A stretch of 64,000 nt of DNA from Paramecium tetraurelia (taxonomy: Eukaryota > Ciliophora > Oligohymenophorea > Peniculida > Parameciidae), in assembly GCF_000165425.1 (NCBI RefSeq), contig NW_001798998.1:114835-178834 (forward strand), read 5' to 3'. The position numbers and the translations under genes are program-made. The notes beneath the pieces were generated by a model. That model was not told where the DNA came from and ran no database searches. It saw only the letters and a program-made list of their open reading frames with translations. Below are positions 20,922 to 56,877 of this stretch, in pieces (position 1 is the first letter of the stretch; each line of letters opens with the position of its first letter).

Positions 20922-21789
20922 TCAAACTTAAGATTTTTTCTTTATCTTTTTATTTATCTAAGTATTTTATTAATTCTTTTTTTATTTCTTTTGTGGCATC
21001 CTTCTGTTTTCACATTCCGTACATTAGCAATGAGATGTGCACTTCTTTCCCCTAATGAAGCATTCACAGTAACCTTTTACACATTTTGTCTTTTTGCACT
21101 TACAGCCCCACACTTATTTAGTATCGAAGGAATCCAAATCATGATGTGATGCTCTCTGTTCTTTTATCTTAATTTATTCAACTGCCTTTTAAACTTCTTC
21201 CTCGTGTTGCCCATCATTATAACAATCGTTGCATCTGCATTCACTCATGCATCGACGCCGATTATGAAAACAAGAACAATATAATTATAAACAATGAGTC
21301 TTTGTGCAATGACAAGGTTTCATCTCGTCTTATTCCACAGGAGAATCATCAACATTATAATTTGCTTTATTCCCTTTTCTTCTCGTTTGAATCTATTAAA
21401 TAGTTGGTATTTCCTATATTTCAAACTATCTTATTTCAGACACAGCCTCCTATTGAACTTTCCTCTCCTGTTTCTTAGGAGGAGAATATTTCATTGGACT
21501 CATGCCTTCTATTGACATTGGTTTCTTTGTTTGATTTTGACAGTCATCTATCGACATTTGTGAACTATTCAAATCATGCCCATCTATACATATATAGCAT
21601 TAGTTTAGGCACTGGAACATCCTCTATTAATTCAGCAGATGACAATTAACTCTGAGTTTGCGGCCTTACTAATTCCTATTTAACGTTATCCCGCTATTCA
21701 TTATCCTTCGGCATAAATAAATCCTCATGCTTTGCCAAATCATTAGATGATGAAATATACATTCCATTTTAGCTCTCTTTATTACTCAT
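20922..21789 (-). CDS. CXC/CRC-domain protein (tesmin/LIN54/TSO1 family), 281 aa
   Basis: DNA-binding regulator of the tesmin/LIN54/TSO1 family, whose Cys-rich repeats bind CHR-type promoter elements. ATG 21789; one 22-nt intron joins the disordered N-terminus to MFQCLNQCYICIDGHDLN. Then come two CXC repeats: KPCHCTKTHCLQLYCSCFHN...CMSECRCNDC and, after a ~40-residue spacer, GCKCKKTKCVKGYCECFIRG...CTSHCQCTEC. The Cys spacing is canonical in both. The short spacer between repeats carries no RNPCKK-type consensus that I could see. A basic Lys/Gln tail ends at TGA 20922. In other organisms such proteins act in cell-cycle gene control; that role here is inferred. Confidence 0.85.
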
Positions 21790-24880: not shown

Positions 24881-24951
24881 TTGACCGTCGCACATAGGAA
24901 GTGCAACTGATTGTAGCTCAGAAGGTTATGGTTCGATTCCATATGGTCAGA
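24881..24951 (+). tRNA. tRNA-like gene 1, anticodon GTA (Tyr-type)
   Basis: Cloverleaf: acceptor TTGACCG/TGGTCAG, T8, D stem GCAC/GTGC with GG in the loop, anticodon arm ACTGA-TTGTAGC-TCAGA (A:A at the first pair), T arm TATGG-TTCGATT-CCATA, B box GGTTCGATTCC perfect. A TTTTT run follows 6 nt downstream. The loop reads GTA with U33 present. Confidence 0.75.
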
Positions 24952-25118
24952 ATGTTTTTATAATCATAACTTTTTTATTTTACAAGAATAACTTGATAAA
25001 TTCAAGATAATTTCAATTATCACGCAAATCTTGTTATATTATTACTTTATGATAGTGAATAGATACTAGATTATTCTAACTTAATTAATATAATCCTTTA
25101 TGAGATATTTTTTAATGA

Positions 25119-25189
25119 TTGACCGTCGCACATAGGAAGTGCAACTGATAGGATGTCGGAGGGTTATGGTTCGATTCCATATGGTCAAG
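25119..25189 (+). tRNA. tRNA-like gene 2, loop TAGGATG
   Basis: Same body as gene 1: acceptor TTGACCG/TGGTCAA, GCAC/GTGC D stem, TATGG/CCATA T stem, perfect B box, T5 run downstream. The anticodon stem is CTGA/TCGG (one G:T). The loop would read GGA but lacks U33, which is A, so decoding is doubtful. Confidence 0.6.
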
Positions 25190-25311
25190 ATTATTTTTAT
25201 TAATACTTTTATTTTTAATTTAAGACCATTTTACATAACCAACTATTAATACATCCAAGAATTCATTAAATTATTGTATTTTAGTTATTACTTATTTATA
25301 ATATCATAGTA

Positions 25312-25383
25312 GTGATCCTCGCACAAATGGTAGTGCAACCGAAAGACAATCGGAGGGATATGGTTCGATTCCATGGGGTTACA
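25312..25383 (+). tRNA. tRNA-like gene 3, loop AAGACAA
   Basis: Different acceptor (GTGATCC/GGGTTAC) but the same D arm GCAC/GTGC, 8-nt D loop with GG, anticodon stem CCGA/TCGG, T arm TATGG-TTCGATT-CCATG and a perfect B box. The loop would read GAC but U33 is A. A TTTT run follows. First member of a duplicated pair. Confidence 0.6.
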
Positions 25384-25549
25384 ACTTTTAATCATAACTT
25401 TTTATTGTGAATTGAAGGTTATTTAAAAAATAACTTTAGAAATTCAAGAAATTCTTATTTATATTGTGAATTTTTGTATTATGATGTTAATAGATATTCG
25501 ATAATTATAAGAAAATTCAGATTTAAGCTAATGAAAAAATATTCAATGA

Positions 25550-25620
25550 TTGACCGTCGCACATTGGAAGTGCAACTGATTGCAAGTCAGAGGATTATGG
25601 TTCGATTCCATATGGTCAAT
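25550..25620 (+). tRNA. tRNA-like gene 4, anticodon GCA (Cys)
   Basis: The best-formed member: TTGACCG/TGGTCAA acceptor, loop TTGCAAG with U33 and anticodon GCA (Cys), purine at 37, TATGG/CCATA T stem, B box intact, TTTT downstream. The likeliest functional tRNA-Cys of the array. Confidence 0.75.
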
Positions 25621-25715
25621 ATTATTTTATTAATACGTATATTTTTAAATTATAACATCCAATAATCAAATAATTTATTTTATTTTTGTAATTATCTATT
25701 TAAAATATCATAGTA

Positions 25716-25786
25716 GGAACCCTCGCACAATGGTAGTGCAACCGATTACATATCGGAGGGCATTGGTTCGATTCCAATGGGTTTCG
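25716..25786 (+). tRNA. tRNA-like gene 5, loop TTACATA
   Basis: Acceptor GGAACCC/GGGTTTC, T8-C9, GCAC/GTGC, anticodon stem CCGA/TCGG, perfectly paired T stem ATTGG/CCAAT, B box intact, TTTTT downstream. The loop reads ACA with U33 but a pyrimidine at 37. It is the duplicate partner of gene 3, with acceptor changes compensated on both strands. Confidence 0.65.
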
Positions 25787-25957
25787 CTTTTTATCATATC
25801 TTTTTATTGTGAATTGAGGAATATTTAAAAAATAACTTTAGAAATTCAAGAAATTCTTAGTTATATTGTGAATTTTTGTATTATGATGTGAAAGTTAATA
25901 GATATTCTATAATTATAAGAAAATTCAGATTTGAGCTTATGAAAAAATATTCAATGA

Positions 25958-26028
25958 TTGACTGTCGCATATAGGAAGTGCAACTGATTGCTAGTCAGAG
26001 GGTCATGGTTCGATTCCATAGGGTCAAT
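25958..26028 (+). tRNA. tRNA-like gene 6, anticodon GCT
   Basis: Copy of gene 4 in the duplicated unit: acceptor TTGACTG/GGGTCAA, D stem GCAT/GTGC (one G:T), loop TTGCTAG with U33 and anticodon GCT (Ser AGY box), T stem CATGG/CCATA with an end mismatch, B box intact, T6 run downstream. Confidence 0.65.
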
Positions 26029-26260
26029 ATTATTTTTTAACTAATATAGATTATTATTTAACAATAAAAATATATAAATTAGGGTCAGTCACACTTTTTT
26101 TAAATAACCTATTTATTATGAATTTTATGCATTTGATAAAAAAAAACAATCTAATGTCTAGGTATCTTCAATTATTCTATGAAATTCGCCATTTATTTAG
26201 CTAGTGATTGAATAATTACAAATAAATTAATATTGTAATTTAAAAGAAAAATTTCAATGA

Positions 26261-26331
26261 TTGACCGTCGCATATAGGAAGTGCAACTGATCGCAAGTCA
26301 GAGGGTAATGGTTCGATTCCATAGGGTCAAT
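26261..26331 (+). tRNA. tRNA-like gene 7, loop TCGCAAG (GCA)
   Basis: TTGACCG/GGGTCAA acceptor, GCAT/GTGC D stem, loop TCGCAAG: anticodon GCA but C at position 33 instead of U. T arm AATGG-TTCGATT-CCATA, perfect B box, T6 run downstream. Resembles gene 4 most. Confidence 0.65.
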
Positions 26332-55363: not shown

Positions 55364-55437
55364 CTTGACCCTTGAGGAATTGAACCTCGAGCTTCCAATT
55401 ATGAGTTGGTTGCACCACTATTGTGCGAAAGAATCAA
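55364..55437 (-). tRNA. tRNA-Met (CAT)
   Basis: Minus strand: paired ends (TTGATTC with GGGTCAA, or GATTCTT with AAGGGTC in an alternative register), D stem GCAC/GTGC, anticodon arm ACCAA-CTCATAA-TTGGA giving CAT with U33 and A37, T arm GAGG-TTCAATT-CCTC, and a T5 run on its 3' side. It shares the D arm and the A:A first anticodon-stem pair with the array at 24.9-26.3 kb. Exact ends are uncertain by 2 nt. Confidence 0.7.
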
Positions 55438-55666: not shown

Positions 55667-55831
55667 CCTTATTTTGAACTATAAATTATTATTTTGGAGA
55701 ATTCATTAATGAAAGGATAAGAAATATGTTAAGCTAGCCCTCCTAGCTCAGTTGGTCAGAGCGTTGGCCTTTTAAGCCAAATGTCAAGGGTTCGACCCCC
55801 TTGGAGGGCGGTTCTTTTTTATTTTTTAATT
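55667..55831 (+). repeat. inverted repeat, left arm (contains tRNA-Lys)
   Basis: About 165 bp, nearly identical (about 97% by eye) to the reverse complement of 56712-56877. It covers the whole tRNA-Lys plus ~70 bp of 5' and ~20 bp of 3' flank. The arms face each other across an 880-bp spacer that includes the assembly gap. Confidence 0.85.
55737..55810 (+). tRNA. tRNA-Lys (TTT), copy 1
   Basis: Canonical cloverleaf: acceptor GCCCTCC/GGAGGGC, A box TAGCTCAGTTGG, anticodon arm TTGGC-CTTTTAA-GCCAA (TTT, U33), T arm AGGG-TTCGACC-CCCT, B box GGTTCGACCCC, and a T6 run right after the 3' end. Reads AAA/AAG lysine codons. Confidence 0.92.
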
Positions 55832-56029
55832 ATCATAAATTAAATGTAAATACAAGCTGTAATTATCAAACAATTATCGATTTTACTACTATTTAATATA
55901 AAATAACGCATATTGAACTGAAAGTATTTGTATATTCAAAGCATTCTACCATTATTAAAGTAATTCAAAAATATATGAATTATCAAATGGTTTCCAATAC
56001 AAATAATTATTATTAGAGATATTATAAAT

Positions 56030-56179
56030 NNNNNNNNNNNNNNNNNNNNNNNNNNNNNNNNNNNNNNNNNNNNNNNNNNNNNNNNNNNNNNNNNNNNNNN
56101 NNNNNNNNNNNNNNNNNNNNNNNNNNNNNNNNNNNNNNNNNNNNNNNNNNNNNNNNNNNNNNNNNNNNNNNNNNNNNNN
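56030..56179. other. assembly gap (150 N)
   Basis: A run of 150 N between the inverted-repeat arms. The true length is unknown. Confidence 0.98.
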
Positions 56180-56690
56180 TGACCCCCTTCCAATTTGCTA
56201 ACTTGAATAAACTACTGTACCTGACTCATCTCCACTCATACTGCTTCTCCTTCTTTGGCTACTCAAATCACCGTCGCCTTCTCTGAACTTGCTCTTTTCG
56301 CCCAGCCTTTTCCCTCGCTCTTCCGCCCCCGCTTTGTCCACCCACTCCCCCCTGTGTTAGCATGATTCTGGCCTTCTCTCCTCTCACCCCTACTATATCT
56401 TCGCCACCCGTGTAATACAGAGCTTTCCTCTTTACAACCTACTAGTTGCACTTGGCTTTTTCCTACATAGAACCATAACGTATCCAAACCTCCTTAAACT
56501 CGCATATCTATCCACTAATCACCCTTTAGGAGTCGGCTAGAATTTTGCGACTAGGCTCCTTCGCGATCGACACAACAGTAGCATGTCTAACCCCCAATGC
56601 CGCATTAAGTTCCCACTTTGCTCGTCCCTAAGGTGCCTCTTTCCCAATTTCGCGCTAACCTAGCCACTCCATAATCAGATCTTTAGTTTT
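56180..56690. other. GC-rich island of unknown nature
   Basis: About 510 bp of roughly 50% GC, against about 25-30% elsewhere, directly after the gap and inside the inverted repeat. The minus strand is purine-rich with G runs; the plus strand is pyrimidine-rich with C runs. The minus strand is open for ~140 codons under the ciliate code (with many TAG/TAA as Gln), but the translation (e.g. GVGGQSGGGRAREKAGRKEQ) looks unlike a folded protein, and such a run is expected by chance at this GC. No rRNA, SRP or RNase P core recognised by eye. It ends sharply at AT-rich DNA near 56690. Confidence 0.7.
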
Positions 56691-56711
56691 TCAATTAAAA
56701 AATTAATTAAT

Positions 56712-56877
56712 TATTAAAAATAAAAAAGAACCGCCCTCCAAGGGGGTCGAACCCTTGACATTTGGCTTAAAAGGCCAACGCTCTGACCAACTGAGCTAGG
56801 AGGGCTAGCTTAACATATTTCTTATCCTTTCATTAATGAATTCTCCAAAATAATAATTTATAATTCAAAATAAGGAA
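56712..56877 (-). repeat. inverted repeat, right arm (contains tRNA-Lys)
   Basis: Reverse complement of 55667-55831 with only a few differences (e.g. GAACT versus GAATT at the outer end). The inner boundary falls within a T/A-rich tract, the outer one at TTATTTTGAA. Confidence 0.85.
56732..56805 (-). tRNA. tRNA-Lys (TTT), copy 2
   Basis: Identical in sequence to copy 1 over the tRNA body, on the opposite strand, with the same T6 run downstream. All stems pair perfectly, so both copies could be functional if both exist in the genome. Confidence 0.88.

Follow-up and report, generated by a model that had tools for sequence, protein, structure and literature searches.

A tandem array of seven tRNA-like genes

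Seven related tRNA-like genes, c1 to c7, lie in tandem on the forward strand (+) at positions 24881-26331 of the window, the 64,000-nucleotide stretch of Paramecium tetraurelia DNA that was analysed, in surroundings of about 25% G+C. The genes are of two types. The A type comprises c1 (24881..24951; anticodon GTA, with U33, T1.G72 and A73), c2 (25119..25189; loop TAGGATG, giving anticodon GGA with A33 and T37, and G73), c4 (25550..25620; loop TTGCAAG, giving anticodon GCA with U33 and A37, and U73), c6 (25958..26028; anticodon GCT, U73) and c7 (26261..26331; anticodon GCA but C33, U73). The B type comprises c3 (25312..25383; loop AAGACAA, giving anticodon GAC with A33, and A73) and c5 (25716..25786; loop TTACATA, giving anticodon ACA with T37, and G73). 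The A-type acceptor sequence is TTGACCG, or TTGACTG in c6, and discriminator base 73 reads A, G, A, T, G, T and T from c1 to c7. The location of the array, the anticodons of the copies (GTA, GGA, GAC, GCA, ACA, GCT and GCA) and the lack of U33 in three of them agree with an earlier note on this DNA; position 33 is A in c2 and c3 and C in c7.

In an alignment of the seven copies, 40 of the 72 columns are invariant, and the D-arm and T-arm letters are nearly constant, in line with the earlier statement that these arms hardly vary. The B box, which had been described as perfect, is identical in all seven copies, as is GGTTCGATTCC, and the A box is mostly invariant. A run of four to six T residues, also noted earlier, begins no more than six bases from the 3' end of each copy. 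Transcription of the copies by Pol III is predicted. The array has the form of a tandem tRNA gene cluster, with head-to-tail repeat units each carrying a tRNA gene, and unequal exchange between units would be the expected process. Part of it is a segmental duplication of about 400 bp: one copy, at 25245..25635 (+), holds c3, a spacer and c4, and the other, at 25649..26043 (+), holds c5, a spacer and c6. The two spacers are identical at 156 of 165 aligned positions (9 differ), with 7 gap positions.

Folding and recognition of the copies

Positions 27 and 43 are both A in 7 of 7 copies, leaving each with an anticodon stem of 4 bp; the 20 remaining stem pairs were scored in each copy. All 20 form in each of c1 to c5 (three of them as G.U in c3), and 18 form in each of c6 and c7, where pairs 7-66 and 49-65 are broken. 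The cloverleaf that had been claimed for all seven copies is thus complete over the scored pairs in c1 to c5 but not in c6 and c7, and 27-43 is unpaired throughout. ARAGORN recognizes five copies (c1, c2, c4, c5 and c6). Five also pass the Rfam model RF00005, an Infernal-type check that the earlier note had proposed: c5 with the highest score of the array (51.1 bits), c4 (48.3), c1 (46.6), c6 (33.1) and c7 (30.7). No RF00005 match was obtained for c2 or c3 even at E<=1, and c3 was detected by neither program.

Additional evidence for a common fold came from covariation. Seven pairs show two-sided change across the copies, compared with a mean of 3.0 after shuffling, in line with the earlier observation of compensated acceptor changes, and 92.5% of cells are paired, compared with 24-37% for slid versions. 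These figures should be read with caution, as they derive from only seven rows, all of them related. The two-sided changes fall between the A and B types.

c4 and the search for other tRNA-Cys genes

The cloverleaf of c4 has canonical stems, a T loop and GG in the D loop, with 27-43 as its sole unpaired position. The gene combines a GCA anticodon with U33, a purine at position 37 and U73, the base required by cysteinyl-tRNA synthetase, and its product would be charged with cysteine. The other six copies lack the combination of GCA or ACA, U33 and U73: c1, c2, c3 and c6 have another anticodon, c5 has ACA but G73, and c7 has C33. The earlier note suggested that the copies may be Cys tRNAs with relaxed decoding. 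This description suits c4, which is a good tRNA-Cys; against extending it to the array are the three copies without U33 and the retention of U73 only in c4, c6 and c7. The other copies are not expected to decode.

The genome (69 Mb in 231 contigs) was searched with patterns for further tRNA-Cys genes. A strict pattern of a GCA anticodon arm and a T arm gave five matches, namely c4, two tRNA-Leu(CAG) genes and two sites without a tRNA call. An intron-tolerant pattern, allowing about 28 extra bases, gave 21 matches genome-wide and no further tRNA-Cys; those outside the array, checked with ARAGORN, include an Arg-like gene and the copy with a CAT anticodon described below. A pattern with a relaxed T arm gave 65 matches, among which only c4 folds as tRNA-Cys. 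Four of these are the two tRNA-Leu(CAG) genes and two non-tRNA sites; among the other 61, the pairing score is 20 of a possible 21 for c4 and at most 15 for any other site, and ARAGORN found no tRNA among the 60 apart from c4.

No recognisable tRNA-Cys(GCA) other than c4 was therefore found among the pattern matches, which come from a possibly incomplete assembly and would let long introns or odd T arms escape, and on these searches c4 is probably the sole nuclear tRNA-Cys(GCA) gene of the genome. The same approach gave 6 matches for Phe, 6 for Asn (five identical strings and a variant), 7 for Asp and 3 for His, counts read off the matched strings, seven of which were examined as tRNAs. Translation would be exposed at this point if the only tRNA-Cys gene lies in a tandem array with rapid turnover, given that Asn, Asp, His and Phe each yielded three to seven near-identical genes.

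Relatives of the array and its origin

A family signature combining the GTGCA D arm with the T arm has ten matches genome-wide: the seven array copies, the CAT relative, a Tyr-like gene on contig C210 and one site without an ARAGORN call. DNA searches with c4 and c5 returned five and two array copies, respectively, and nothing else. The CAT relative is a Met-like tRNA at 55364..55437 (-), 29 kb from the array, with an RF00005 score of 44.5 bits and 0.69-0.72 identity to the array. It has the family D arm (GCAC..GTGCA) and the A27.A43 mismatch and, when read by hand, an additional base between the acceptor and D stems; it is probably a distant member of the array family. The possibility that the D-arm motif came from bacteria or viruses found no support, as one exact pattern had 0 matches in collections of genome contigs and viral contigs.

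The window has two sister regions derived from genome duplications, a younger one, L034 (contig C212), and an older one, L035. Neither contains a tRNA, and the array is absent from both. In the younger sister, the neighbours on either side align at 80-83%, and the array interval is replaced by other sequence. The simplest explanation is that the window's branch acquired the array after the younger duplication; its loss from both sister regions is possible but less simple. The alternative that the array was conserved through the recent genome duplication is unsupported.

A separate observation concerns the sequence that stands in place of the array at L034 4591-6697, which is coding-like and in part common to the older sister. 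Positions 5585-6175 of L034 align to 8961-9551 of L035 (66%, E 6e-35), and the window gives only short weak matches. Because this stretch is common to both sisters and so poorly matched in the window, it is probably ancestral and was lost in the window, where a gene seems to have disappeared from this interval.

Changes concentrate in the anticodon loop

It had been proposed that variation among the copies is confined to the anticodon loop. It is concentrated there instead, and base 73 varies too. The five A-type copies require at least 20 changes, 8 of which fall in the seven-column loop (P=0.0004 in a binomial test; P=0.014 in a best-window scan), and for all seven copies the count is 13 of 42 (P=0.0001; scan 0.006). 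The comparison of c1, c2 and c4 places 6 of 13 changes in the loop (P=0.0009; scan 0.028). Between c3 and c5 the count is 6 of 17 (P=0.004), which is not significant in the scan (0.12), and c4, c6 and c7 give no excess (2 of 9; P=0.22). Because the excess lies in comparisons that involve c1, c2, c3 and c5 and is missing from the c4, c6 and c7 comparison, it is the former four copies, not c6 and c7, that carry the loop pattern. Five within-isotype pairs of native tRNAs, with 34 differences between them, have identical loops in 5 of 5 cases, a weak control since the pairs were picked for a common anticodon.

Selection for a higher dosage of Cys genes fits this pattern poorly, because GCA would be expected to be kept, yet only c4 and c7 of the seven have it, and c7 lacks U33. 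A different possibility is that the altered copies are functional tRNAs with shifted anticodons, such that c1 reads Tyr codons, for example, and c5 (ACA) reads UGU. One candidate is c1, which has a plausible Tyr loop together with Tyr-like G72 and A73: of the six changes that set it apart from the other A-type copies, four (T35, G37, G72 and A73) match the genome's two Tyr genes. In primates, a tRNA-Cys(GCA) gene was remolded into tRNA-Tyr(GTA) and has persisted (PMC4981973), with a change of alloacceptor and the rest nearly unchanged, much as c1 compares with c4; it differs in being a single event dated from orthologues, whereas the array holds several altered copies. The agreement of four of six changes in c1 has, however, a P value of about 0.1 by hand estimate, at which a simple Cys-to-Tyr identity conversion is suggestive, and other Tyr genes are present in the genome.

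The remaining copies fit less well. While c5 has the best RF00005 score, it carries T37 and G73; U33 is missing from c2 and c3; and the Ser anticodons of c2 and c6 are not accompanied by the long variable arm that Ser tRNAs of this genome have. Judged by U33, a purine at 37 and identity elements, c1 fits in part and c2, c3 and c5 do not. The array resembles anticodon shifts catalogued across eukaryotes in that anticodons are substituted in otherwise conserved tRNA genes. In that survey, the middle base is the one most often changed in alloacceptor shifts (PMC3923123); 71 of the 75 recorded shifts are of a single base and unstable tRNAs were filtered out, in contrast to the array, whose loops vary at several positions, including 33 and 37. 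Functional anticodon shifts are thus a distinctly improbable account of the array.

Conservation of the tRNA body

Pair retention was compared with a null in which an equal number of changes is placed at random, which leaves about 13-17 pairs. c3 and c5 differ from each other at 17 aligned positions, and both keep 20 pairs (P 5e-5 to 1.5e-4). All 20 pairs are also kept in c1 (P 0.007) and in c2 (P 0.013-0.014). The losses in c6 and c7 are what random change would produce (P about 0.33 and 0.45, respectively). The neutral-rate pair loss of a tRNA pseudogene is therefore seen in c6 and c7 (18 of 20) and not in c1, c2, c3 and c5 (20 of 20). The earlier judgement that the array is not ordinary decay stands for the latter four copies but not for c6 and c7, which lose pairs at the random rate and add no loop excess. 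Plain drift of dead copies is a poor fit, because four non-Cys copies keep 20 of 20 pairs when random change would leave 13-17.

Flanking sequences (60 bases upstream and 50 downstream) were compared with shuffled sequence. No copy pair reaches the 99th percentile of shuffled sequence except c3/c5, with flank identities of 0.82 and 0.90, and c4/c6 upstream, with 0.95; because the flanks of other pairs lie in the shuffled range, flank age can be judged for c3/c5 and c4/c6 only. Between c4 and c6, 7 of 71 body positions differ, against 9 of 165 in the adjoining spacer, so the body shows no slowdown in this pair. The body of c6 is nearer to that of c7 (4 differences), and c6 looks like a mosaic, its upstream flank resembling that of c4 and its body that of c7. 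This combination makes exchange within the array likely, and conversion within the array could account for part of the body conservation. The origin of c3 by a single tract of A-into-B conversion was ruled out, as A-like and B-like sites interleave.

These data bear on the proposal that the array is an ordinary pseudogene cluster, in which all copies but c4 are dead and their bodies are similar only through recent duplication and gene conversion. The random rate of pair loss in c6 and c7, the lack of slowdown between c4 and c6 and the loss of U33 from c2, c3 and c7 are all consistent with such a cluster, and PMC4981973 considers recent changes of alloacceptor in primates and flies to be mostly non-functional. 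The proposal is nonetheless improbable for the array as a whole, given the full pairing of c3 and c5 across 17 differences (P about 1e-4), the full pairing of c1 and c2 (P 0.007 and 0.013) and the loop excess in the A-type copies (P=0.0004).

A somewhat stronger contender, though still an unlikely one, is that c1, c2, c3 and c5 are tRNA-shaped RNAs or tDNA elements with a job other than decoding, retained because of their fold, or because their A and B boxes bind TFIIIC, with the loop left free. Roles of tDNAs in chromatin are reviewed in PMC8007984. This idea would explain the loop excess, the retention of pairing while most flanks became unalignable, the invariance of the B box in all seven copies and of most of the A box, and the two-sided pair changes between the A and B types. 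TFIIIC binding alone, however, would not need the acceptor stem, which is conserved too; the absence of the array from both sister regions means that such a role would be recent; and conversion with c4 could yield the same picture. In a more specific form, which we consider a little less likely again, c1, c2, c3 and c5 would be recently born, Pol III-made, tRNA-folded RNAs freed from decoding, whose fold and promoter are selected and whose loop is free or diversifying. If this is true, a family of decoding-free RNAs lies beside the one tRNA-Cys gene that the cell relies on.

A proposed birth-death cluster of tRNA-Cys genes

The reading that we favour, with a probability of roughly 55%, is that the array is a local birth-death cluster of tRNA-Cys genes, with one working gene, four structurally intact copies whose loops have drifted and two copies in decay. 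The organism's tRNA-Cys gene would have been amplified locally in tandem, c4 being the working gene, and new copies would have arisen by unequal crossing-over and by segmental duplication, as suggested by c3-c4 and c5-c6. Once a copy is redundant, constraint on its anticodon loop and discriminator would be lost, such that the decoding constraint goes first. The bodies of c1, c2, c3 and c5 may have stayed intact through selection on a transcribed, folded RNA, through conversion from a sound copy, or through both, and c6 and c7 would now be losing pairs. Counting against this reading are the full pairing of the four intact non-Cys copies, which drift of dead genes would not produce, and the anticodon changes, which would be unexpected if additional Cys genes had been advantageous. 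The array would offer neighbouring copies in which the constraint on decoding is uncoupled from that on structure, a system for studying how a tRNA body is maintained after decoding stops.

The tRNA-Cys cluster of Arabidopsis and the primate Cys-to-Tyr remolding are close precedents (PMC10701932, PMC4981973). The Arabidopsis thaliana cluster on chromosome 5 consists of tRNA-Cys-GCA genes in tandem units of about 0.4 kb (PMC10701932). Its repeats share 84-94% identity, a tRNA-Cys pseudogene flanks it, variants with mispaired stems are numerous, and whole units have been gained and lost. The Paramecium array is alike in having tandem tRNA-Cys-related genes in units of about 0.4 kb and mispaired variants. 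The two differ in that the Arabidopsis cluster genes are tRNA-Cys-GCA and further tRNA-Cys genes are located elsewhere (13 sequence variants in Col-0), whereas in Paramecium only two of the seven copies have a GCA anticodon, one of them without U33, and the searches detected no tRNA-Cys gene beyond the array. A literature search by title and abstract opening returned no description of the array among the best-ranked papers, with most subscription papers outside its coverage.

The 27-43 mismatch and tRNAs that neighbour stop codons

The mismatch at 27-43 touches a current question, namely whether 4-bp anticodon stems loosen the reading of stop codons. Anticodon arms of native tRNAs were sampled at 44 loci and at the 13 of 14 further loci that contain a gene, with Ala, Val, initiator Met and others outside the sample. 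The 27-43 pair is present in the main copy of the 28 sampled anticodon types other than Cys, Tyr and Trp; a variant Lys copy (L142, C27:223686) has 27-43 unpaired. In Trp(CCA), 27-43 is C.A in both distinct copies (L071 and L176). An intronless Tyr(GTA) gene (L074, C210:311515-311586) also has C.A at 27-43, together with C.T at 3-70 and a D arm resembling that of the array. In an intron-bearing Tyr gene (L168, C3:478465), 27-43 is A.C, and all other stem pairs form after removal of the 13-base intron called by ARAGORN. The Trp, Tyr and Cys-family tRNAs, all neighbours of stop codons, thus all have 4-bp anticodon stems, a grouping made post hoc that has a chance of 1 in 4495 by simple counting.

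Long reading frames are open only with TAA and TAG as sense codons, with 42 TAR codons in one frame of 417 amino acids. Together with the low G+C around the array and the duplicated sister regions, this is in keeping with a macronuclear genome of Paramecium, and on that ground UGA is taken by us to be a stop codon. PMC13092985 describes tRNA-Trp(CCA) with a 4-bp stem as promoting UGA readthrough, and reports that ciliates in which UGA encodes Trp have it, while Stentor and Fabrea, where UGA is stop only, lack it. A ciliate that uses UGA as stop and has a 4-bp-stem tRNA-Trp would bear on this rule, at least as it is stated there. Among the best-ranked titles from 2022 onwards on the tRNATrp anticodon stem and UGA, no work on Paramecium nuclear tRNAs was found.

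Other tRNA genes and features

Several odd tRNA-like genes are scattered through the genome: a Lys-like gene of 41 bits (L156, C211:24656), an Arg(CCT)-like gene (L040, C18:249761), the variant Lys (L142) and a Pro-like gene without an ARAGORN call (L178, C39:126047). They are possibly a pool of decaying tRNA copies. Within the window, tRNA-Lys(TTT) occurs twice in inverted orientation at 55680-56860, with 57 identical bases upstream and 16 downstream. Between the two copies lie an N gap (56030-56179) and a block of 49% G+C (56180-56660) in AT-rich surroundings, and the region is a possible assembly artefact. At 20922-21785 (-), a gene encodes two Tesmin/TSO1-like CXC stretches (PF03638, 2.4e-21).
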